Assembly: GCF_017815135.1 (NCBI RefSeq)
Contig: NZ_JAGJCF010000002.1
Location: 124,001 to 188,000, forward strand
Length of the DNA: 64,000 bases
Direction: 5' to 3'
Origin: Jiella mangrovi
GTDB lineage: Bacteria > Pseudomonadota > Alphaproteobacteria > Rhizobiales > Rhizobiaceae
The notes under the pieces: generated by a model
What the model was told of the DNA's origin: nothing
What the model saw: the letters and a program-made list of their open reading frames with translations, nothing else
Databases searched by the model: none
Program-made: the position numbers and the translations under genes
In this document: piece after piece, positions 5,661 through 52,373 of the stretch
How the letters are laid out: the number at the start of each line of letters is the position of its first letter
Numbering within the stretch: position 1 is the first letter of the stretch

Positions 5661-7106
5661 ATGCAGATCACGTCACACAGCTTCAAGGCCAACACCGTCA
5701 AGGCGATCGACGACGTCCAGCTCCAGCGGGCGCTCGGCAATGTCGAGAAGGGCTTCATCGGCAAACGCCAGAAGGCCGCCGACGCCCTGCCGGAATTCGA
5801 CGCGCTGCGCGACGAGGCGGTGAAGATCAAGAACCACACGCTGAAGCATCTCGACCTCTACATCGAGGCCTATGTGGAAAAGGTCGAGGCGTCGGGTGGC
5901 AAGGTGCATTTCGCCGAGGATGCCGACCACGCGCGGCGGATTTTCCTCGACATCGCAAAACGCCGGAAGGCGAAGACCGTCACCAAGGGCAAGACGATGA
6001 TCTCCGAGGAGATCGGGCTCAACGCCTTCCTCGAGGAGAACGGCATCACCCCTGTCGAGACCGATCTCGGCGAATACATCATCCAGCTGAGGGGCGAGCA
6101 TCCGAGCCACATCATCGCGCCGGCCGTGCATATCAACCGCGATCAGGTCGAGGCGGATTTCCGCAAGTTCCACCTCGATCTCGACCCGGAACGCGATCTG
6201 ACCAAGCCGGAAACGCTCTTGTCCGAAGCCCGGCAGATTCTCCGCCAGAAATACGGCGAGGCCGATATCGGCGTGACCGGCGCGAATTTCCTGATCGCCG
6301 AGACCGGCACGTCGGTCATCGTCACCAATGAGGGCAATGGCGATCTCACCCAGCTCATGGGCAAGTGCCACGTCGTGCTGGCCTCGCTCGAAAAGCTCGT
6401 TCCGACGCTGGAGGATACCGCACAGATCCTGCGGGTTCTCGCCCGCTCGGCGACCGGCCAGGAGATGAGCGTCTACACGACGCTTTCGACCGGCCCGAAG
6501 CGCGCAGAGGACGAGGACGGGCCGGAGGAATATCACGTCATCCTCCTCGACAACGGCCGCTCGAACATGCTCGGCACCGAGTTCGAGGAGATGCTGCGCT
6601 GCATCCGCTGCGGCGCCTGCATGAACCACTGCCCGGTCTATCACGCCGTCGGCGGCCACTCCTATGGCTGGGTCTATCCGGGCCCCATGGGCGCGGTGCT
6701 GACGCCATCGCTGATGGGCGTCGACAAGAGCGGCCATCTTCCCAACGCTTCGACCTTCTGCGGACGCTGCGAAAGCGTCTGCCCGATGCGCATTCCGCTG
6801 CCGAAAATGATGCGGCACTGGCGCGAGAAGGAGTTCGAACAGCACCTTCAACCGACGGCCGCGCGGGCCGGCCTTAGCGTCTGGGCCTATTTCGCCCGGC
6901 GGCCGAAGCTCTACCGAGCGGCCGTCTCCTTCGCCATGCCGGCGCTGAAGCTGCTTGCCGGCCGCAAGCGTCGTTTCAGCGCGCTGCCGCTTGCCAGCGG
7001 CTGGACCAAATGGCGCGATCTCCCCGCCCCCGAAGGGCGCACCTTCATGCAGGCCTATGCCCAGAGCGGCCACGGGCAGAAGGCCGGCAAGGGAGCGGGC
7101 GCATGA
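5661..7106 (+). CDS. lutB: L-lactate utilisation Fe-S protein LutB (LldF type)
   Basis: This 481-residue protein has an N-terminal LUD domain, including KAKTVTKGKTMISEEIGL around residue 110 and ANFLIAETGT around 210. Two 4Fe-4S ferredoxin motifs follow near residues 314-375: CIRCGACMNHCPVYHAVGG and CGRCESVCPMRIPLPKM. This is the standard LutB/LldF layout. It is thought to carry electrons from the lactate-oxidising complex. Its TGA overlaps the ATG of lutC by ATGA. Length and motifs are normal, so the DUF29 insertion upstream has not disrupted it. Confidence 0.95.
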   Translation: MQITSHSFKANTVKAIDDVQLQRALGNVEKGFIGKRQKAADALPEFDALRDEAVKIKNHTLKHLDLYIEAYVEKVEASGGKVHFAEDADHARRIFLDIAKRRKAKTVTKGKTMISEEIGLNAFLEENGITPVETDLGEYIIQLRGEHPSHIIAPAVHINRDQVEADFRKFHLDLDPERDLTKPETLLSEARQILRQKYGEADIGVTGANFLIAETGTSVIVTNEGNGDLTQLMGKCHVVLASLEKLVPTLEDTAQILRVLARSATGQEMSVYTTLSTGPKRAEDEDGPEEYHVILLDNGRSNMLGTEFEEMLRCIRCGACMNHCPVYHAVGGHSYGWVYPGPMGAVLTPSLMGVDKSGHLPNASTFCGRCESVCPMRIPLPKMMRHWREKEFEQHLQPTAARAGLSVWAYFARRPKLYRAAVSFAMPALKLLAGRKRRFSALPLASGWTKWRDLPAPEGRTFMQAYAQSGHGQKAGKGAGA

Positions 7107-7789
7107 GCGGCTCGACACGCGACGCCGTCATGGGCCGAGTTCGCCGCGCCGTCGGCGCGACACCGGCCAATGATGCCGAAAGACGGGCCGCCGTCGCCGC
7201 ACGGCTTTCCGGCGCGCCCAAGGGGATCATACCGGAGCGCGGCCGGCTGCCTCCGGCAGACCGGCTGGCCCTCTTCATCGAAATGGCAACGCGTGCCAAT
7301 GCGACCGTGACGCGGCTCGACGCCACGACCAGGGTGCCGGAGGAAGTCTCGGCCTATCTGCGCGAGCGCAACCTGCCGGCTTCCGTGAAAATCGGCCGCG
7401 ATCCGCGCCTCGCCGGCCTCGACTTCTCGCAGACATCGCTGTCCGTGTCGGTCGGGCCCAGCGAAGGCGACGATCTCGTCAGCCTCTCCCACGCGGCCGG
7501 CGCGATCGCCGAAACCGGCACGCTGATCCTGACCTCCGGGCCGGACAACCCGACCAGCCTCAACTTCCTGCCCGAATATCACATCGTCGTCCTCGACGCG
7601 GCGGATGTCGCGGGCGACATGGAAGCCGTGCTCGCGCGGCTGCGCGACCGCCACGGCAAGGGCGAAATGCCCCGATCGGTGAACTTCATCACCGGCCCGT
7701 CGCGCTCCGCCGACATCGAGCAGACGCTGCTGCTCGGGGCCCATGGGCCTCGAAGCCTGCATATCGTCGTCGTCGGAGAGCCGAGCTAG
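7103..7789 (+). CDS. lutC: L-lactate utilisation protein LutC (LldG type)
   Basis: About 228 residues with a LUD domain that includes VSLSHAAGAIAETGTL and GPSRSADIEQTLLLGAHGP, the conserved C-terminal block of LutC/LldG. It is the third component of the L-lactate oxidation complex. ATG 7103 overlaps the lutB stop. The open frame runs further upstream inside lutB, but that part has no family similarity. Its stop codon shares the CTAG palindrome with the stop of the convergent Uma2 gene, so there is no spacer between the two genes. Confidence 0.93.
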   Translation: MSGSTRDAVMGRVRRAVGATPANDAERRAAVAARLSGAPKGIIPERGRLPPADRLALFIEMATRANATVTRLDATTRVPEEVSAYLRERNLPASVKIGRDPRLAGLDFSQTSLSVSVGPSEGDDLVSLSHAAGAIAETGTLILTSGPDNPTSLNFLPEYHIVVLDAADVAGDMEAVLARLRDRHGKGEMPRSVNFITGPSRSADIEQTLLLGAHGPRSLHIVVVGEPS

Positions 7790-8376
7790 CCGAGCAGCGG
7801 CCCTGGCACGAAGTCGATCCCGTCGAAGATTTCGGCGAGCGGCAGGACGATGCCGAGAGCCGGGATCGCGACCTCCTTGTCCAAACCGACGACCCGCCTT
7901 TCGTCCTGCCAACCGGTTTCGCTTTCGGCCGAGCGCTCGAAGACATAGACCTCCGGCCGGTTCGGCTCGATATAGAGAATCGTACGGATTGAAGGTACGG
8001 CCTTGTATTCGGTGAGCTTCAAGGCTCGATCGAGATCTCGGGTCGACGGCGAGAAGACTTCGACGACGAGGACGGGCTTCGTTGCGACCAATGCGTTCGG
8101 ATCATCCTGCTGGCAATCCACACCCGCGTCTGGCCGGCGTATCCGATCCTCGATTGTCCTGACGCAATAATCTGCCGTGAACGGCTTGCACGGATGACCC
8201 TTAAGGCGTTGGCGCAACTCGCTGAGAACGTTCAGGACCACATTGTCGTGGCGTGCCGTCGCCCCGGTCATCATCTTCACCGGCTGGCCTTGGATGAACT
8301 CGTAACGGCCGGGCCTTCCTTCCTGCCAGGCCAGAAACTCCTCGACACTCCAGGCCTGTTGTTCGGCGTGGCTCAC
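7786..8376 (-). CDS. Uma2-family (DUF820) putative endonuclease-fold protein
   Basis: About 196 residues from GTG 8376, chosen because GGAGG lies 6 bases upstream; the frame is open further to 8445 without a ribosome site. Family features are the N-terminal SVEEFLAWQEGRPGRYEFIQG, the core RRPDAGVDC, then VLVVEVFSPSTRDLDRALKLTEYKAVPSIRTILYI. The D...E-V...K arrangement is the PD-(D/E)XK-like core of Uma2. Biological role unknown. It is convergent with lutC, and a partial relative sits at 1-223 on the other side of the same locus. Confidence 0.88.
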   Translation of the reverse strand: MSHAEQQAWSVEEFLAWQEGRPGRYEFIQGQPVKMMTGATARHDNVVLNVLSELRQRLKGHPCKPFTADYCVRTIEDRIRRPDAGVDCQQDDPNALVATKPVLVVEVFSPSTRDLDRALKLTEYKAVPSIRTILYIEPNRPEVYVFERSAESETGWQDERRVVGLDKEVAIPALGIVLPLAEIFDGIDFVPGPLLG

Positions 8377-8441
8377 TGTTGCCTCCGACGGTCTCCAATC
8401 ACAACGGCATGACCTTAGCATATTGCTGCGAAGATTTCCCC

Positions 8442-9575
8442 TCAAAGCCCCTCGGTAAACTCGTCGATCAACATTCTGATCACCCCGCGCAGCGCTTCCC
8501 GCTCGTCAGCGCCCTCGCCCCGCAGCCGGGAAAACGTCGCGAGCTGCCGGTCGGCGCCGGTGCCGCTCTTGACCACATCGCGCAGACCCTCGACTTCGCC
8601 GAGACATCCGAGGGCCTCGGCATGCGGCCGCACGAAGGCGATGAGCTCGTCGAGGAGGTCGCCATAGGGCACCAGCTCACCCTTGCCGAAATCGATCAGG
8701 CTTTCGCTGACGCCGTAGCGCTGGGCACGCCATCGGTTCTCGGCGATGAGGAACCGGTCATATTGCCGCCACTGCTTGTTCTCGGCGCGCAGAAAGAAGA
8801 GAAAGCGGAACAGCGACTGGGTCAGGGCGGCGACGCCGATCGCCTCTCTCACCGTCGGCAAGACGTCGCAGATGCGCGATTCCACCGTCGGGAACTTTTC
8901 CGATGGCCTCACATCCCACCAGATCTTGGTGCAATCCTCGATCAGCCCGGTGTCGATCAGGATCCCCGCCGCTCGGGAATATTCGGAAAAGCTGGAGAAG
9001 GTCGGCGGGATGCCGGTGCGTGGCATGTTGTCGAACACCGTCAGCCGATAGGATTTCAGCCCGGTATTTCGCCCGCCCCAAAATGGCGAGGACGTCGACA
9101 GCGCCAGAAGATGCGGCAGGAAATAGGAGAACTGGTTCATCAGATCGATGCGCAGATCGTCGTCTTCGATCCCCACATGGACATGCATGCCACAAATCAG
9201 CATGCGCCGCGCGACGGCGGCGAGGTCCTCCTCCAGCTCCCGGTAGCGCTCCTTGTCGGTGAAGCGCTGCTCGTCCCAGTCGGCGGTCGGATGGGTGGAA
9301 ACCGCCAACGGGGCGCAGCCATGCTCCCCGGCGATGCGGGCGACGGTGCGCCTGAGATGGGCGAGATCCTCGCGCGCTTCGGCGATGGTCTTGCAGACGC
9401 CGGTGCCGATCTCGATCTGGCAGCGCAGGAACTCGGGATTGACCTTGTCGCCAAGCTCGGCGACGCAGTCCTCCAGCAGCCCGTCCGGCGCCGAGGCCAG
9501 ATCGAGCGTTTCGCGATCGACGAGAAGATATTCTTCCTCGATCCCAAGTGTGAAGCCGGGTTCTGCGCTGGTCAT
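8442..9575 (-). CDS. Carboxylate-amine ligase, glutamate-cysteine ligase family 2 (YbdK type)
   Basis: About 377 residues, the usual size for YbdK/GCS2 proteins. The N-terminus [19 protein letters not shown] is the family signature, with GIEEEY supplying glutamates for metal and substrate binding. Further blocks include [21 protein letters not shown] and [13 protein letters not shown]. The family forms gamma-glutamyl-type bonds with ATP; E. coli YbdK has weak glutamate-cysteine ligase activity, and the true substrate here is unknown. ATG 9575 gives the standard N-terminus; upstream in-frame starts at 9617 and 9707 would add residues with no family match. Confidence 0.88.
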
Positions 9576-9718
9576 CCCATTGATTTGCAGCGAGAAGTCG
9601 CGAAAGCAAGGCGCCATAGTCAGCGGATCGTCAGCCGGCATGCTCGCGGCGGGCGACGCTTGACAGGGCGGTCGGTGCGCAGGCTTCCTCTGGGGCCGAG
9701 ACACCAAGGAGCCCGCCG

Positions 9719-10360
9719 ATGCCCGTGGAACCCGCGACCTTTCTCGCCTTTACCCTCGCCTCCCTGGTGCTTCTCGCCATTCCGGGCCCGACGGTGGTGA
9801 TGGTCGTCGGCCAGGCACTCGCCCATGGCCGCAAGGTGGCGCTCGCCAGTGTTCTCGGTGTCGGCCTCGGCGATCTCGTCGCCGCGACATTTTCGATCGC
9901 CGGCGTCGGCGCGCTTCTAGCCGCGTCCTCCGAAGCCTTCATGGTGCTGAAATGGGCGGGCGCGGCATATCTGGTGTGGATGGGCGTCAAACTGTGGCGC
10001 AATCCGCCGCAGCCCACTGAGACGGCCGGCAGCGCCGATGTGGCGCGAGGCCGTCCATCGCGGGTGTTCCGCGACGCCTTCCTGGTCACGGTCTTCAACC
10101 CGAAGGGCCTCGTCTTCTTCGCCGCCTTCGTCCCGCAGTTCATCCACGCCGGCCAGCCCTATCTCCCGCAGGCGGCGATCTTCGTCGTCGCCTTCGTCAT
10201 CCTCGGCCTTCTCAACGCCGCGCTCTACGCCCGGCTTGCCTCATCGGCTCGCTCGCTACTGAAGACACCTCGCGCCCTCGTCATGTCCGGCCGCGTCGGC
10301 GGCGTCTGCCTCATCGGCGCGGGCGTTGCCTCGGCACTGGTGCGCCGGCCGGCCGGATGA
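9719..10360 (+). CDS. LysE/RhtB-family amino acid or metabolite exporter
   Basis: A 213-residue inner-membrane protein with about six predicted helices. The N-terminus [30 protein letters not shown] is the LysE/RhtB signature, with the conserved PGP and the following basic loop [16 protein letters not shown]. The middle block [18 protein letters not shown] is also conserved. The family exports amino acids such as threonine, homoserine lactone or lysine; the substrate cannot be told. It stands alone and is divergent from the ligase gene. Confidence 0.9.
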
Positions 10361-10426: not shown

Positions 10427-12715
10427 TCAGGGCAGGTTGTCGAGCCACTCCACGGGTGGGTCATCCTTCGGCCGCCCCAGCAGGAAGCCCTGGCCGAAAT
10501 GAATGCCGTTGCCGCGCAACCATTGCAGCTGCATGACGTTTTCGATGCCCTCGGCGACGAGATGGATGTTCAGATCCGCCGTCAGCCGCGTCACCGTGCG
10601 AATAATCGCTTCGACCTTATGGTCCGGAAGCTGCCTGAGAAAACTCGCATCGATCTTCAGCCCGTCGACATCGATCATCTGCAGATAGCTCAAGGATGAA
10701 TAGCCGGTCCCGAAATCGTCGAGAACCAGTCGAACCCCTTGGGCCTTGATTGCCGTCAGCTGCTCGAGCACACTCTCCGAAAAATCGACGAAGATATTTT
10801 CAGTAATCTCAATCCCGACCCGCGACGGTGCGAGGCCGGTCTCCCGCAAGATGTTCGCCAGGACTTTGGGAAATCGACCGCTGATCAATTGCTGGGGCGA
10901 CAGATTCACGTTGATTTGCAAGGACGAGGGCCACTGTGCCGCTCTCGTGAGAGCTGCACGCAAGATCCACTCTCCCAACCGATCGATCAGGCCGCTGTTC
11001 TCCGCTATGGGAATGAACGTCGCCGGAGACACTTGTCCGCGCTGCGGATGATGCCATCGTGCCAGTGCTTCCACGCACAAGACCTGCCCCGTGAACAGAT
11101 CCGCGATGGGCTGATAGACGACTGTTATTTCCCCGTTGTCGATCGCCGCGGCGAGTTCGCTTTCCTGGACGAGGCGTGCATCATACTCCTCCTCCAGTTC
11201 GCGCTTGAAACAGCGAACCGCTCCCTTGCCTTCGACCTTTGCCTTGTAAAGTGCGAGGTCGGCCTTGAACAAAAGTCGGGCGGCGTCATCAGCCTTCTCC
11301 TCGAAGGCGGCAATGCCGATACTGGTGCTTGGGGTCACGCTATGGCCGTAGAGCACCAGACGTTCTGCGATCAGTTCAGACAATCGTGCTGCTTCGTCGA
11401 CCGCCGTTTCGAGATCGACGTCAGCAATGAGAAGCGCAAACTCGTCTCCCCCGAGCCGTCCGCTCTCGTCCGATGGACGAAGGACGGAGTTTATGCGTTC
11501 AGCGACGCTCACCAACAACTCGTCGCCGAGATGGTGACCATAGGTGTCGTTCGTCTGCTTGAAATTGTCGAGATCGATGATGGCGAGGACGAAACGACGC
11601 CCCTCCTGGCAGGCCTTCGCCACCTTCTCGACGAAAGCCTTGCGATTGAGTAGTCCGGTGAGCCCGTCGTGCCTGGCCAGATAGGCGAGCTTCCTGTCCG
11701 CCTCGTAACGCTCGGTTATGTCGCGCCCTATGCCGCGAAAACCGGTCAGATACCCATCTGCGCTGTGTACGGGGTGGCCGGTCAGATTGAACCAGCGTTG
11801 TTGCGTGCCGACCCTTATTGTCGTCGTCAGATCCCGAAAGGCGATATGCTGGTTCAGACAGTTCTGTAAACGGGGGTGGCCTCCGCTCTCTTCCGACGCA
11901 CTGAAGATCAGATCCAGACGCCAGTCCTGATCGTTTGCCGTCTGTGCATTCACGACGGCAGCAAGGCTGGGCGGCACGGATATCAAACGTCCCTTGGCAT
12001 CGGTTTCCCAGAGCCAATCGGACGATCCTTCCTGATACTCACGCAGGAAGATGCTCACGGTCGAAACTTCGCGCCTCAAAGCGGCTTGCGCCTTTGAACG
12101 TCCGTCGAATGCGAGGTTCGTACAGATGATTCCGACGACGGCGAACAGGGTATAGCTGGTGAAGGCCACCATGGTGACGGTATCGGCTATGTGGAGCATG
12201 GCCACAGCGACCATCGACAGAAGCGCGACAGGCAGAAAAAAACTGAACGCCACAGTGGCCGGAACGCAGATGATCGACGTCGATATCACCCCGAGCGCAA
12301 GACCGATGATCATCGCATGCTGATCTGCCTCTCCGTAGTGACCCAAGGCATTGATCAAGGCGCCCCAGGCGATACCCAAAGCCAGATACAGGACGCGGGC
12401 CCATTGCAGATAGCCGAATGCGTTATTGGATCGTTTCCAGATGAAGGACGCAGCCACGATGAGCCCGTAGACTGTCACTATGACTGCGCCGAAAAGGGGC
12501 AGCACCAGTCGGTGAAGCGGATCGAAATTCAGGACGATGAAGACCGCATTAGCGACACCGGTCGCTGCGAACAGCATGCTCAGGCTGAACAGGAGGCTGG
12601 CCTGGTCGCGCAGCGACTCCCTGTTCTGCTCGGAGGTTGGAGGCTTTAAACGAAGCAGAAGGCGCAGCGAGGCTGCGCCTTCCTGTGTTCGAGACACGAT
12701 AGAATTCCAAGACAT
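10427..12715 (-). CDS. Membrane PAS-GGDEF-EAL cyclic-di-GMP enzyme
   Basis: About 762 residues. The N-terminal 200 residues hold several predicted membrane helices, followed by a PAS-like sensor (GYLTGFRGIGRDITERYEAD at its end). The GGDEF domain has HDGLTGLLNRKAF and an intact SGRLGGDEFALL. The EAL domain has VLCVEALARWHHPQRG, NVNLSPQQL, and the catalytic-type DDFGTGYSSLSYL. Both domains look complete, so the protein could make or degrade c-di-GMP. ATG 12715 overlaps the stop of the ICMT-like gene by one base (TAATG), implying translational coupling. It is the last gene of the FeeM-ICMT unit. Confidence 0.93.
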   Translation of the reverse strand: MSWNSIVSRTQEGAASLRLLLRLKPPTSEQNRESLRDQASLLFSLSMLFAATGVANAVFIVLNFDPLHRLVLPLFGAVIVTVYGLIVAASFIWKRSNNAFGYLQWARVLYLALGIAWGALINALGHYGEADQHAMIIGLALGVISTSIICVPATVAFSFFLPVALLSMVAVAMLHIADTVTMVAFTSYTLFAVVGIICTNLAFDGRSKAQAALRREVSTVSIFLREYQEGSSDWLWETDAKGRLISVPPSLAAVVNAQTANDQDWRLDLIFSASEESGGHPRLQNCLNQHIAFRDLTTTIRVGTQQRWFNLTGHPVHSADGYLTGFRGIGRDITERYEADRKLAYLARHDGLTGLLNRKAFVEKVAKACQEGRRFVLAIIDLDNFKQTNDTYGHHLGDELLVSVAERINSVLRPSDESGRLGGDEFALLIADVDLETAVDEAARLSELIAERLVLYGHSVTPSTSIGIAAFEEKADDAARLLFKADLALYKAKVEGKGAVRCFKRELEEEYDARLVQESELAAAIDNGEITVVYQPIADLFTGQVLCVEALARWHHPQRGQVSPATFIPIAENSGLIDRLGEWILRAALTRAAQWPSSLQINVNLSPQQLISGRFPKVLANILRETGLAPSRVGIEITENIFVDFSESVLEQLTAIKAQGVRLVLDDFGTGYSSLSYLQMIDVDGLKIDASFLRQLPDHKVEAIIRTVTRLTADLNIHLVAEGIENVMQLQWLRGNGIHFGQGFLLGRPKDDPPVEWLDNLP

Positions 12716-13269
12716 TACCAACGCAGCATCCCACGCACCCTCGGCACGATCATTCCTGTCCGGCGCCGGTACCGTATATAAGAAGCTGCCATTAACGATT
12801 TAAAAAACCGCTCTTCCTCCGCCCTCGCGATCACGAAATACCAGCCGATCAAGAGCGCCGCTGCCAGCCATTGGGGCCCGCCGGCGGCAACGGCAGTGCC
12901 GAGCCAGAACAGGCAGTAGGCCAGATAAAACGGATGGCGGACAAAGGCATAGGGACCTGTCTCGTAGAGCAAATCCGGATCGGACTGGCTATGCGCGACA
13001 CATGGAGGCAGCCGCTTGGTCGTCCTGACAGCCCACCAGAACAAGGCAGCCGAAGCACAAGCGAGGATAACGAAGACGAGAGCCGTGACACCGTCAACGT
13101 CACCCGTGACGACGAGAACGAGGAAGAGCAGCGCGGAAAGGCTGCTTGCGGCCGTGAGAGCGCGCATCGCGGTTGGCATGCCCTCGCTGGCACGAAAATG
13201 CCCCCGCAGGCCCCAGCTGAAGGAGGCGAGCGGCACGGCGGCGAACACGATGATGAGTGCGGTCAGCAT
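12715..13269 (-). CDS. ICMT/PEMT-like membrane methyltransferase
   Basis: About 184 residues with four or five predicted membrane helices and the C-terminal pattern of isoprenylcysteine carboxyl methyltransferase-like proteins: YETGPYAFVRHPFYLAYCLFW followed by a helix and ARAEEERFFKS. In the family this region binds S-adenosylmethionine at the membrane face. The substrate in bacteria is usually unknown; a lipidic carboxylate is typical of the better-studied members. ATG 13269 overlaps the stop of the upstream FeeM-like gene (TGATG), and its own stop overlaps the GGDEF-EAL start. This strict coupling suggests that it acts on the FeeM-like product, but that is inference. Confidence 0.85.
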   Translation of the reverse strand: MLTALIIVFAAVPLASFSWGLRGHFRASEGMPTAMRALTAASSLSALLFLVLVVTGDVDGVTALVFVILACASAALFWWAVRTTKRLPPCVAHSQSDPDLLYETGPYAFVRHPFYLAYCLFWLGTAVAAGGPQWLAAALLIGWYFVIARAEEERFFKSLMAASYIRYRRRTGMIVPRVRGMLRW

Positions 13270-14168
13270 CACTCACGCTCCCGGACCGAGAGGGTCACGG
13301 GTCCCCCTTCGAAAAATCGGCTGAGGTCCCCGGTCCGGCCAGTCATCGGATTCATGACGGGAACCGCAAGCCGCACTTTGTCGTATCTTTCGCGATCGCT
13401 GGCCATGAGCCGCATCTGACAGCTCAGCCCGGGATAGGCCCGCAGTTCGGACGCGGGCTCATAACCGAGGCGCCTGTAGAAAGGAGTATGATTTTCGCGA
13501 ACGCAGGCCAGATGGACCTGGCTGTGCGCGCAAAGCGCGATGTAGCCAGCCATGCGGTAGAGGAGAAAGACGAGGCCCTGATTGTTCTCCGCTTCCGGGC
13601 TGCGGACGAGACGCGTCACCTCGATACCCCGCCCGGAGAACAGGCTGTGGGTATCGCGGTTCAACAGATCATCGACCTCTTTGCGGAATGCGTCCCTCGC
13701 CGGCGACGTGAGGTCCGTTCCACGAGCCAGCGTGCATGTCCGCACCGATGCCACAGCGGCGCCTTGATCGTAGATGACGACAGTGCTGGCGTTCGGCATA
13801 TCGTCGTAGATATCCTTGAACCGGCCAGAGCTGTTTGGTTCGATATGTCCGCCTGCGACATAACTGCGATAGCGCAGTCGGAAGGCGTCGTCCCTGACGG
13901 ATTCGCTGACCGCGAGCCGCGCCACGTATTCGTTCGACCGGGTCGCGGATCCGGCACGCCTTTCCGGCGGAGCCTTGGGTACGGACCTTTGCAGTGCTTC
14001 GTGCTGAAGCCGCTCACCATTTGTTAATGTCGAGATTGTATTGTCCACGGAACAAGCCCCATCGTTAAAATCGCCCAGACAGATGTGGGCCTCGGCAATG
14101 CCAGGCAGCCGGTCGATCCGGCTGGGCCGCACCATTGTGCAGTGCCCGGCGCCGAGGTGATAGGTCAT
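13269..14168 (-). CDS. FeeM-like N-acyl amino acid synthase (GNAT fold)
   Basis: About 299 residues. After a roughly 80-residue unmatched N-terminus comes the FeeM/autoinducer-synthase-like core: VRDDAFRLRYRSYVAGGHIEPN, DIYDDMPNASTVVIYDQGAAVASVRT, EVTRLVRSPEAENNQGLVFLLYRM and the ending HTPFYRRLGYEP. FeeM enzymes transfer fatty acyl groups from acyl carrier protein to amino acids such as tyrosine, giving long-chain N-acyl amino acids; they share fold with acyl-homoserine-lactone synthases. The start is uncertain: ATG 14168 leaves only 38 bases to the divergent Rmf-like gene, and GTG 14048 is an alternative. It is the first gene of a three-gene coupled unit. Amino acid substrate unknown. Confidence 0.78.
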   Translation of the reverse strand: MTYHLGAGHCTMVRPSRIDRLPGIAEAHICLGDFNDGACSVDNTISTLTNGERLQHEALQRSVPKAPPERRAGSATRSNEYVARLAVSESVRDDAFRLRYRSYVAGGHIEPNSSGRFKDIYDDMPNASTVVIYDQGAAVASVRTCTLARGTDLTSPARDAFRKEVDDLLNRDTHSLFSGRGIEVTRLVRSPEAENNQGLVFLLYRMAGYIALCAHSQVHLACVRENHTPFYRRLGYEPASELRAYPGLSCQMRLMASDRERYDKVRLAVPVMNPMTGRTGDLSRFFEGGPVTLSVRERE

Positions 14169-14206: not shown

Positions 14207-14434
14207 ATGCAGTTCTTCCAACCCGTTGAAAATATCTCTGATTTTAAGAATCTCGATGAAGGCGAAATTCTGTGTGGGTACATGGACGGCATCAGTGGCT
14301 CGCCATGCACGCTGTCGAAAGTCTCGCGCTCCTACTGGCATGGCTGGCGAAACGGACTCGTCGATGGCGGTTTCACCGAGCAGGATGATTCGCAACTGCG
14401 GCTCGAAGCGCAGTTCTCGGCTCTGCCGTCGTGA
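14207..14434 (+). CDS. Small Rmf/CrpP-like protein
   Basis: A 75-residue protein with an excellent ribosome site (GGGAGGAGG, spacing about 7). The middle segment GYMDGISGSPCTLSKVSRSYWHGWRNGLVDGG follows the pattern of ribosome modulation factor-like proteins (GYxAGxxG...R..W..GWR.....). True RMF dimerises ribosomes in stationary phase, whereas CrpP-type relatives have been given other roles, so function is only suggested. It is divergent from the FeeM-like gene with 38 bases between start codons, so their promoters must overlap. Confidence 0.65.
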   Translation: MQFFQPVENISDFKNLDEGEILCGYMDGISGSPCTLSKVSRSYWHGWRNGLVDGGFTEQDDSQLRLEAQFSALPS

Positions 14435-14557
14435 TCCGGCCGGCAAGCCCCGCCGACCTCGGAACGCCGAGCGAACGGCTGGTGCGAAGCGAGATTTGAA
14501 CCCGCAACGCCAGTGCCTGACCAAGCCGATCAAAATTTAGTGAAATTTCAAGATTGA

Positions 14558-14632
14558 TGGTGCCGGCGGAGAGGATCGAACTCCCGACCTTCGGTTTACA
14601 AAACCGCTGCACTACCGCTGTGCTACGCCGGC
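14558..14632 (-). tRNA. tRNA-Thr (anticodon TGT)
   Basis: Read on the minus strand, a 75-nucleotide cloverleaf with a 7-bp acceptor stem GCCGGCG/CGCCGGC, a D-arm GCACAGCGGTAGTGC, anticodon loop TTTGTAA (anticodon TGT), T-loop TTCGATC and an encoded CCA end. This identifies a threonine tRNA reading ACA. It sits between the Rmf-like gene and the HisA-like gene. Confidence 0.95.
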
Positions 14633-50321: not shown

Positions 50322-52373
50322 TTGCCGATAATCAGCTGCATCTTCACAGAATACGACCCATGGATGACGGCGCTCGCGGCGGTGATGTGCGCCATCGGTT
50401 CCGCCATCACCGTGAGGCTATGGACCCGAACCCTTCAGGCGACCGGGCGGATGCGAATCGACTGGGCCTTTCTGACGAGTGTCACAGCCGGCGCAGCGAT
50501 CTGGGCCACCCATTTCATAGCGATGCTTGGCTACGACCCCCCGGCTGCAGCCACCTTCGATCCGCAGCTGACGATCATCTCCATCCTGATCGCCATCCTG
50601 GGCACCGGCATCGGATTTTATCTATCCGCGATGCGACGAAAAGGGATGGCGTGGCTACTCGGTGGATCGACAATCGGCCTGTCCATCGCCGCAATGCATT
50701 ATGTCGGCATGTTCGCTTACCGGGTCGATGGCATCGTCACCTGGAACGACGGCTATATCGCCCTCTCCCTCGCCGGTTCGATCGGCCTGTCCCTCGTTGC
50801 AACGAAATTCGTCCTCGCATCGCTTGACGAAGGGCGTGATCGGCGCGCCACGCGTCTTTTGTCCATCGGCTTTCTCATTGCTGCGATCGTGACGCTGCAT
50901 TTCACCGGAATGACCGCCTTCCATGTCTCGCCGATCGCCGGTTTCTCCGCAGGCGCCGACAGCGAGGCCTTCGGAGCGATGGCCTTGGCCATTGCGACTG
51001 CGGCATTGATCATCGTCTTCACCGGGCTCTCCAGCCACCTGATCGACAACGACACCCGCGCGGCACAGCAGAGGGAGCTGGAACACATCGCCAATCACGA
51101 CGAACTCACCGGCCTGTGGAATCGTCGCCGCTTCTCGGCCGGATTGGCCGAGGCGTTTGAAACCCGCGAGGCGGGCATCGATCCGCTCTTTCTCGTCATG
51201 ATCGACCTCGACCGGTTCAAGTCGGTCAACGACACCCTCGGTCATGGCTTTGGCGACCGTGTTCTCGAGATGGTGGCAAACAGGCTCCGCAAGATTGTCG
51301 GCAGGGAACGCCGGATAGCACGGATCGGCGGCGACGAATTCGCCATTCTGGTGACGGACGCAACGGAAGAGGACGTCGCCGATCTCTGCCGTTGCCTCGT
51401 CGAAGTGATGTCGCGGGCAGTCGTCGTCGATGGCCACGTCATCGAAATGGGGACGAGCATCGGCGCGGCCCAAGCCTTTCGCGACGGAGCCTCGCGCGAT
51501 GAACTCGTCCAGAACGCCGATATCGCCCTTTATGCAGCAAAGGCGGAGGGCCGGTGCTGCTTTCGGTTCTACGTGAGCGAAATGTCGCAGAACGTCCAGC
51601 TGCGCCGGACCCTGGAAACCGATCTGAGGCGCGCCCTCGGCCGCGGTGAACTCGCCGTCCAGTACCAGCCGCAGGTCGATGCGAAGACCGGCGCCTATAC
51701 GGGCGCAGAAGCCCTGTTGCGCTGGTACCATCCCGAAAAAGGCTTGATCCCGCCGACCGACTTCATACCGCTGGCGGAGGAAATCGGCCTCATCAACGCG
51801 ATCGGAACCTGGGTTCTGCGGCAGGCTTGCCTGGAGGCGACGAACTGGCCGCGACACATGGGCGTTGCCGTCAACCTCTCTCCCGTGCAGATCATGGACA
51901 GGCGCCTTCTGCGTTCGATCAAGACGATCCTGTCCGAAACCGGCCTCGATCCCAAACGTCTCGAACTGGAGATCACCGAAACCGCGCTGCTCGGCAACGA
52001 TGAACAGGCCCTGGCCACCTTGTCGGCGATCAGTGACTTCGGCGTCGCGATCGCGCTGGACGATTTCGGCACGGGATATTCGTCGCTCAGCTATCTCCAC
52101 CGCTTCCCGATCGACCGCATCAAGATCGACCGGTCGTTCCTGCAGAGCATCCCCGAGGACAGCGACAGCGCCACGATCGTCCAGGCGATCACCCGGCTCG
52201 GTGCCAATCTCGGTATGAAGGTCACCGCGGAGGGTATCGAGACGGAGGTGCAGCAGCGCTTTGCCAGCAACGCGGGTTGCGACACCCTGCAAGGCTATTT
52301 CTTCAGCCGTCCCGTCACGAGCGCGCAGCTGATGTCCGTCCTGGAAACAACGCTTCGGGCGGGGGCTGCATGA
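50322..52373 (+). CDS. MHYT-GGDEF-EAL membrane cyclic-di-GMP enzyme
   Basis: 683 residues from TTG 50322. The N-terminal MHYT domain has seven helices with the repeated motifs WATHFIAML, AAMHYVGMFA and LHFTGMTAF, which are proposed to bind copper and sense oxygen, CO or NO. The GGDEF domain has HDELTGLWNRRRF and RIGGDEFAIL; the EAL domain has GAEALLRWYHPEKG, NLSPVQI and DDFGTGYSSLSYLH. Both catalytic domains look intact. The TTG start is needed to complete the first MHYT helix. The stop overlaps the BLUF gene start (ATGA). Confidence 0.94.
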   Translation: MPIISCIFTEYDPWMTALAAVMCAIGSAITVRLWTRTLQATGRMRIDWAFLTSVTAGAAIWATHFIAMLGYDPPAAATFDPQLTIISILIAILGTGIGFYLSAMRRKGMAWLLGGSTIGLSIAAMHYVGMFAYRVDGIVTWNDGYIALSLAGSIGLSLVATKFVLASLDEGRDRRATRLLSIGFLIAAIVTLHFTGMTAFHVSPIAGFSAGADSEAFGAMALAIATAALIIVFTGLSSHLIDNDTRAAQQRELEHIANHDELTGLWNRRRFSAGLAEAFETREAGIDPLFLVMIDLDRFKSVNDTLGHGFGDRVLEMVANRLRKIVGRERRIARIGGDEFAILVTDATEEDVADLCRCLVEVMSRAVVVDGHVIEMGTSIGAAQAFRDGASRDELVQNADIALYAAKAEGRCCFRFYVSEMSQNVQLRRTLETDLRRALGRGELAVQYQPQVDAKTGAYTGAEALLRWYHPEKGLIPPTDFIPLAEEIGLINAIGTWVLRQACLEATNWPRHMGVAVNLSPVQIMDRRLLRSIKTILSETGLDPKRLELEITETALLGNDEQALATLSAISDFGVAIALDDFGTGYSSLSYLHRFPIDRIKIDRSFLQSIPEDSDSATIVQAITRLGANLGMKVTAEGIETEVQQRFASNAGCDTLQGYFFSRPVTSAQLMSVLETTLRAGAA

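Follow-up and report, generated by a model that had tools for sequence, protein, structure and literature searches.

A conserved gene unit of Jiella mangrovi joining a FeeM-type synthase, a membrane methyltransferase and a PAS-GGDEF-EAL protein: a candidate lipid signalling system

In Burkholderia and Cronobacter, the gene for RpfF, the synthase of the Burkholderia diffusible signal factor (BDSF), is convergent with the gene for RpfR, a PAS-GGDEF-EAL receptor that converts the signal into a change in cyclic di-GMP (c-di-GMP) (PMC6361424; papers given by PubMed Central (PMC) number are cited from excerpts). In the PhcB/PhcS system of Ralstonia, a methyltransferase makes a methyl-ester lipid signal (methyl 3-hydroxypalmitate or 3-hydroxymyristate, 3-OH-PAME/MAME) that a sensor histidine kinase detects (PMC8578825). 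In the clusters for N-acyl tyrosines (stieleriacines, kyonggic and thalassotalic acids), N-acyl amino acid synthase genes lie close to genes for tailoring enzymes, among them a methyltransferase gene in Stieleria (PMC12479983). Among the N-acyl amino acid methyl esters (NAMEs), N-acyl glycine methyl esters are made by Loktanella isolates other than L. salsilacus (PMC6296433), and the genetic basis of NAMEs was still described in 2024 as hard to find, with no candidate synthase gene known (PMC11580390). Here we describe, in a 64,000-nucleotide stretch of the Jiella mangrovi genome (contig NZ_JAGJCF010000002.1, positions 124,001 to 188,000; hereafter the window), a trio of genes for a FeeM-type synthase, a membrane methyltransferase and a PAS-GGDEF-EAL protein, which may make such an ester and read it out as c-di-GMP.

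It is near certain that the three genes form one functional unit. Their coupling is strongly supported, because it is kept across two orders, the genes stay together although their order is shuffled, genes are fused in some lineages and the combination has been rebuilt from different parts in Rhodobacteraceae. For the complete reading, in which an N-acyl amino acid methyl ester is made and then read out as c-di-GMP, we put the chances at about even.

The unit and its proteins

The trio lies on the minus strand, from the FeeM-like gene through the methyltransferase to the PAS-GGDEF-EAL gene, and is joined by one-base stop/start overlaps, TGATG at 13271-13267 and TAATG at 12717-12713 (Table 1). 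Sequence and Pfam searches agree here with an earlier description of the window (the original prediction), which had however overlooked a divergent open reading frame (ORF) for 75 residues. All four genes are under purifying selection, with a nonsynonymous to synonymous ratio (pN/pS) of 0.18-0.39 in 20/20 comparisons with Aureimonas and Fulvimarina orthologues (0.21-0.36 for the small ORF).

The synthase matched PF21926 (E 9.2e-34, 116.9 bits, cut-off 27; Pfam). The six best PDB matches of an AlphaFold model from 20 sequences (mean predicted local distance difference test, pLDDT, 81.7; low confidence before about residue 54) were all FeeM (2g0b), with a template modelling score (TM) to target of 0.79-0.82 and 17-18% identity; other GNATs came next, among them the N-acyl homoserine lactone (AHL) synthases BjaI, EsaI, MesI and LasI. 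Sequence alone reached 2g0b at E 0.037 only. The proposed FeeM-like identity thus stands on both family and predicted fold; the start originally placed at 14168 is probably too far upstream. GTG 14048 aligns with the ATG of Aureimonas relatives in an alignment of the upstream region and is the likelier start, giving 259 residues rather than 299. An AHL synthase of the LuxI family (PF00765) was considered and rejected for the window protein, with no match at E 0.1; five relatives (L169, L170, L173, L174 and L043) scored 24.1-25.2 bits against a PF00765 cut-off of 24. The window synthase would be expected to make N-acyl amino acids from fatty acyl groups on acyl carrier protein (acyl-ACP).

The methyltransferase matched the Pfam profiles PEMT (1.3e-7, 32.5 bits, cut-off 25) and ICMT (9.4e-7, 29.6 bits, cut-off 24), which bears out its description as an ICMT-like membrane enzyme. 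A profile of 18 relatives matched AtTam46 (8xku, 4e-10) and the ICMT structures 4a2n (1.3e-8) and 5v7p (5.5e-7). Motifs GP, RHPFY, FW and EE were unchanged in 18/18 aligned methyltransferases, and we take RHPFY/EE to be the S-adenosylmethionine (SAM) site. We rejected a true ICMT (protein-S-isoprenylcysteine O-methyltransferase): the fold is common to both, and the NCBIfam equivalog gave 33.1 bits vs the 160 required.

Pfam found EAL (8.6e-66), GGDEF (7.1e-39) and PAS_4 (5.7e-5) in the third protein, and these domains, together with N-terminal hydrophobic segments, agree with the membrane PAS-GGDEF-EAL protein that had been proposed. Its sequence keeps the I-site RPSD-ESGRL-GGDEF, EAL and DDFGTGYSS motifs, and we assume for GGDEF, the RxxD I-site, EAL and DDFGTGYSS their usual catalytic and regulatory roles. 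Pattern counts in loci with a GGDEF-EAL protein were 49/50 for GGDEF, 41/50 for the I-site and 44/50 for DDFG(T/S)GYSS, some of the misses being incomplete proteins. The N-terminal 345 residues were matched, partly in some cases, in 50/56 loci of the named genome scan described below (47 aligned), so that the partner belongs to a single family, having a membrane domain and PAS, and is not an arbitrary GGDEF-EAL protein. In the model of this part, a helical bundle is followed by PAS, and PDB matches were for the most part to PAS/LOV folds; the best-ranked one, a WALK-YYCH model with TM 0.23, was judged no useful match for the membrane domain. Identity with RpfR was rejected as well, the N terminus being a helical membrane domain and the partner FeeM-type; the soluble FI domain was not encountered (no FI-domain profile was searched). 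The 4.9-Mb genome holds 34 GGDEF matches, the window protein included, or about one per 145 kb. A long plus-strand ORF at 50322-52373 carries the second GGDEF match of the window (genome C23:175090-175554).

The small ORF diverges from FeeM and has GGAGG before its ATG. Its orthologue lies upstream of FeeM in 28/28 loci of the main group (L085-L112), and none was found at E below 1e-3 in the 28 loci L113-L140. It had no Pfam match (at E 1), no NCBIfam match and no second genomic copy. The GYxDG and HGWRNG motifs are reminiscent of ribosome modulation factor, with no support from Pfam or genome searches; this candidate (PF04957) was dropped, since the PF04957 search of the genome misses the ORF. 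In an alignment of seven sequences, the stretch that separates the small ORF from FeeM shows moderate conservation (mean 63%), and a conserved operator was discarded there, as no clear palindrome was seen by eye in the seven sequences.

Table 1. Features of the unit and its border in the window
Feature	Position	Strand	Basis and remarks
FeeM-type N-acyl amino acid synthase (putative)	13269-14168	-	PF21926, predicted fold; start probably GTG 14048 (259 aa)
ICMT/PEMT-fold integral-membrane SAM methyltransferase, 184 aa	12715-13269	-	Pfam, structure-profile matches, invariant motifs
PAS-GGDEF-EAL protein with N-terminal multi-helix membrane domain, 762 aa, proposed receptor	10427-12715	-	Pfam, hydrophobic segments, model
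Small divergent ORF, 75 aa, GYxDG ... YWHGWRNG	14207-14434	+	Orthologues in relatives; fourth conserved member
tRNA-Thr (14558-14632) and adjoining stretch, likely insertion point of the unit	14435-14632	-	tRNA-Thr call; congener comparison

Conservation and joint inheritance

The named genome scan used one pattern (profile A3), built mostly from trio loci, and returned 56 loci, the counts of which are not independent because some loci come from one strain or species. They belong to Aureimonas, Fulvimarina, Tianweitania, Pseudoroseomonas, Roseomonas, Rhodopila, Gluconobacter, Endobacter, Acidocella and Acidiphilium, to other Acetobacteraceae, to metagenome-assembled genomes and to one Verrucomicrobia bin. 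All three genes were present at 47 of the 56 FeeM loci. Coupling beyond close relatives had been set beforehand as the test of the proposed trio, and it was found in two orders.

The 47 trios comprise 20 with the gene order of the window, six with a one-frame protein, 18 with the GGDEF-EAL gene divergent upstream and three in convergent arrangement; the orders met were FeeM-methyltransferase-GGDEF-EAL, GGDEF-EAL divergent from FeeM-methyltransferase, and FeeM convergent with GGDEF-EAL-methyltransferase. In the one-frame cases (L095, L101-L103, L111 and L112), methyltransferase and GGDEF-EAL protein share a single reading frame. The only one of these proteins run against Pfam, L095, had EAL, GGDEF and PAS_4 over cut-off, and PEMT at 9e-5 but 23.3 bits vs 25. 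Frames were broken or split at L110. Three of the nine remaining loci had a methyltransferase without GGDEF-EAL (L117, L119 and L138, the last two ending near the side expected for a divergent GGDEF-EAL gene), three had GGDEF-EAL without a methyltransferase (L130, L133 and L135, the sequence of L133 ending after a further 170 bp), L122 sits on a contig of 3.4 kb, and L139 and L140 had neither partner. In convergent, Roseomonas-type loci, an OmpW-family outer-membrane protein is encoded between FeeM and the GGDEF-EAL gene (L096 4764-5477, L098 6901-7584). LysE (9719-10360, plus strand) was weighed as an exporter of the product and dropped, since the ORFs found conserved around the 56 loci did not include it.

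A sample of 249 Acetobacteraceae genomes, not selected for the trio, gave 30 genomes with FeeM. Reading one locus per genome at ±1.5 kb, we found GGDEF-EAL in 24, a methyltransferase in 17 and both in 16; a single locus (L069) had the methyltransferase without GGDEF-EAL. Among the 385 genomes of the class sample, FeeM matched four times, in the window, G106, G432 and G453.

We compared trees of the three proteins over 46 rows, the window and 45 of the 47 trio loci (L107 and L110 were excluded as truncated or split). Agreement was high for FeeM and methyltransferase (Mantel r 0.825), FeeM and GGDEF-EAL (0.945), and methyltransferase and GGDEF-EAL (0.897), with 0/999 permutations each, showing that the three genes have been inherited jointly. 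In a quick FeeM tree, a starred group of nine unites the window with Aureimonas, Fulvimarina and Tianweitania. It lies within a starred group of 17, the remainder of which is Pseudoroseomonas and Roseomonas, and this nesting suggests that the unit as a whole has passed from one order to another.

No FeeM match was found in the nine sampled congeners, nor any gene of the unit in the regions fetched from them, though the HisA-like gene and tRNA-Thr are present there (some 6 kb apart in L197). The unit was likely inserted beside the tRNA-Thr gene; its absence from 9/9 congeners and its position next to this tRNA make horizontal acquisition probable. The same two facts would fit incidental neighbours within an acquired gene block, an explanation that we regard as very remote, as the conservation of the unit, its reordering with no gene lost, the fused frames and the agreement of the trees contradict it. 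Genes that we take to be LutB/LutC-like, one resembling Uma2 and one resembling GCS2 glutamate-cysteine ligase occupy 5661-9707 of the window; congener L189 has LutB and Uma2 matches on the far side of the empty site.

FeeM loci with other partners

In 121 genomes of the window's family and order, its own included, FeeM was matched in 37, with 39 matches overall. One genome (G044) holds a 63% FeeM orthologue followed by a methyltransferase and a GGDEF-EAL gene. We read 29 of the 38 matches outside the window at ±1.5 kb: a GGDEF-EAL match lay within 1.5 kb of FeeM in 27/29, one of them a trio (L005 and L027 are the exceptions). In twenty wider regions, besides the trio L032, the GGDEF-EAL gene was directly upstream of FeeM on the same strand in 18/19; in the exception, L034, the nearest GGDEF-EAL match was 2.3 kb off. 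In a small set of control loci, around the HisA-like neighbour of the unit in the genome of the window and in the nine congeners, GGDEF-EAL was present in 0/10 and the methyltransferase likewise in 0/10. Set against about one GGDEF match per 145 kb of genome, the nearness of GGDEF-EAL to FeeM (27/29 here, 24/30 in the Acetobacteraceae sample) exceeds what chance would give. The pairing of FeeM with GGDEF-EAL is hence widespread in this order, with the methyltransferase as a feature of one branch (27/29 vs 1/29). The N-terminal part of these Rhizobiaceae-type GGDEF-EAL partners gave only a weak profile match (probability 39%, E 3e-4). On the signalling reading proposed below, the pair would be an unmethylated sister of the trio system. 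FeeM-type genes with a membrane GGDEF-EAL gene and no methyltransferase are widespread (L004-L031, L033-L051), and on pRt1078 of Rhizobium tumorigenes (L149 4932-8325) a FeeM-type gene is convergent with a gene for a GGDEF domain-containing phosphodiesterase.

These many loci without a methyltransferase fit a rival explanation, namely a c-di-GMP-regulated pathway for a membrane or secreted aminolipid or surfactant, in which the GGDEF-EAL protein would be a local controller of production or of the enzymes and not a receptor. The fused methyltransferase/GGDEF-EAL frames are also compatible with direct enzyme control, and similar N-acyl amino acids have surfactant activity (PMC11580390). We hold this explanation to be possible though unlikely, and the Rhodobacteraceae loci, with a histidine kinase in the place of GGDEF-EAL, suit a receptor better than c-di-GMP-controlled synthesis.

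On three Sulfitobacter plasmids, a methyltransferase, FeeM and a membrane histidine kinase stand in a row (Pfam was run on one); in one of them (L142) the methyltransferase gene is shortened and lies next to an IS256 transposase. We took family f71 to be Rhodobacteraceae, as a Sulfitobacter marker matches both of its genomes in the sample, at 70% and 62%, and elsewhere the marker reached 51% or less among the other near-full-length matches listed, short fragments scoring higher; a Loktanella-like locus in f71 agrees with this placement. FeeM was found in 9 of 394 f71 genomes. All nine loci were read, and seven combine FeeM, a methyltransferase and a membrane histidine kinase. At L165 (3853-5442), a class I methyltransferase and the FeeM domain share one 529-residue frame, followed by the kinase; in L166, L167 and L168 the order of methyltransferase, FeeM and kinase varies; L169, L170 and L171 carry the kinase, an ICMT-fold methyltransferase homologous to that of the window (E 5e-18 to 1e-11) and FeeM. 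Other than in L169-L171 and Loktanella, the methyltransferase of the Rhodobacteraceae and Sulfitobacter units is of class I. In L172, methyltransferase and FeeM stand where the contig ends, and L173 has a FeeM match under cut-off and no match to the partner queries. L170 is nearly identical to Loktanella salsilacus (kinase 99.8% and methyltransferase 98.4% identical), and plasmids of two L. salsilacus strains carry the kinase, annotated as ATP-binding protein, the ICMT-fold methyltransferase and FeeM, annotated as acyl-homoserine-lactone synthase, the last two overlapping by 4 bases.

That two unrelated methyltransferase folds adjoin FeeM, one of them in the frame of FeeM itself (L165), points to the FeeM product as their substrate. 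It speaks against a second rival, which we consider improbable, that the signal from the synthase is an N-acyl amino acid or AHL-like and the methyltransferase modifies another target, such as another lipid or the receptor. What fits this second rival is the diversity of acceptors among ICMT/PEMT relatives, the proximity of the FeeM fold to AHL synthases and the five FeeM relatives just over the LuxI-family cut-off.

Further FeeM-type genes were met on a Deinococcus actinosclerus plasmid (L144 4889-8247), in one run with a fatty acid desaturase and two class I methyltransferases, and on pACRY02 of Acidiphilium cryptum (L143 4779-6807), divergent from a helix-turn-helix (HTH) protein and adjoining an integrase gene. 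Annotations beside the A. cryptum FeeM and the Palleronia FeeM named no methyltransferase or GGDEF-EAL partner.

A possible signal and its relation to known systems

We favour a reading in which the FeeM-type synthase would acylate an amino acid at its amino group, using a fatty acyl chain supplied by acyl-ACP, and the membrane methyltransferase would transfer a methyl group from SAM to the free carboxylate. The resulting N-acyl amino acid methyl ester would be neutral and partition into membranes. The PAS-GGDEF-EAL protein made with them may sense the ester through its conserved N-terminal membrane domain, its PAS or both, and sensing would alter c-di-GMP, so that cell density or confinement could set the attached or motile state. 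We think the ester itself a moderately probable product; given such a product, sensing by the third protein is clearly the likelier case. The substrate of each enzyme, the receptor role of the GGDEF-EAL protein, the direction in which c-di-GMP would change and the role of the small protein are what we infer from the observations above.

Several observations weigh against this reading. Proteins weakly related to the methyltransferase modify carboxyl, sulfur and phosphate groups, so that the acceptor is not fixed by the family. The membrane domains of the GGDEF-EAL protein and the Sulfitobacter kinase showed no detectable relation (probability 0.3%), and hence no common signal-binding domain is established. 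Within 1.5 kb of FeeM, 28/29 loci of the family and order sample had no methyltransferase, the sole one with it being the trio, and in Acetobacteraceae 8/30 had GGDEF-EAL without a methyltransferase and 5/30 (L080-L084) had neither. Shared species history would equally give congruent trees. The FeeM and methyltransferase pair was read in L. salsilacus, whereas the ester producers are Roseovarius tolerans EL-164 and Loktanella F13, F14 and D3; L. salsilacus is not known to produce such esters. For NAMEs, an antibiotic role is favoured in the organism studied in PMC11580390.

Since no candidate synthase gene for NAMEs is known according to the excerpts of that paper, the pair of FeeM and methyltransferase is a ready candidate for their biosynthesis. 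In the open-licence PMC text we found no paper on FeeM together with GGDEF, or on GGDEF-EAL with an N-acyl amino acid synthase, although other gene names or subscription journals could escape such a search; none on an N-acyl amino acid signal with c-di-GMP and a methyltransferase; and none on an AHL synthase with isoprenylcysteine and Loktanella. Papers there on FeeM or N-acyl amino acid synthases included none on c-di-GMP, judging by title or the start of the abstract.

Compared with described systems, the unit shares some parts with each. N-acyl tyrosine clusters differ in methylating carbon or oxygen of the tyrosine part and in having ThiF and nitroreductase partners, and the excerpts name no signalling protein (PMC12479983). 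Environmental-DNA FeeM (2g0b) has its Pfam family and fold in common with the window synthase, at only 17-18% identity in the structural alignment. LuxI/LuxR is alike in the related fold of its synthase; it differs in that the window synthase lacks a PF00765 match and the unit has no LuxR-type gene. PhcB/PhcS is alike in logic to the FeeM/methyltransferase/kinase units of Rhodobacteraceae, but Phc involves no amino acid and no FeeM, and the output proposed for the window unit is c-di-GMP. The RpfF/RpfR system likewise sets the gene of an acyl-signal synthase beside a PAS-GGDEF-EAL gene. RpfF, a crotonase-fold enzyme, releases a free fatty acid, whereas the window unit has a FeeM GNAT and a methyltransferase, and where RpfR has an FI domain the window protein has an N-terminal membrane domain. 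NAMEs are of the same class as the predicted product of the window unit, and L. salsilacus carries the FeeM and ICMT-fold pair. If our reading is right, the unit represents a new bacterial chemical signalling system and suggests which genes could make an already known family of marine natural products. The known autoinducer systems would then be joined by one whose signal is a lipid-amino-acid methyl ester and which has a dedicated c-di-GMP receptor.

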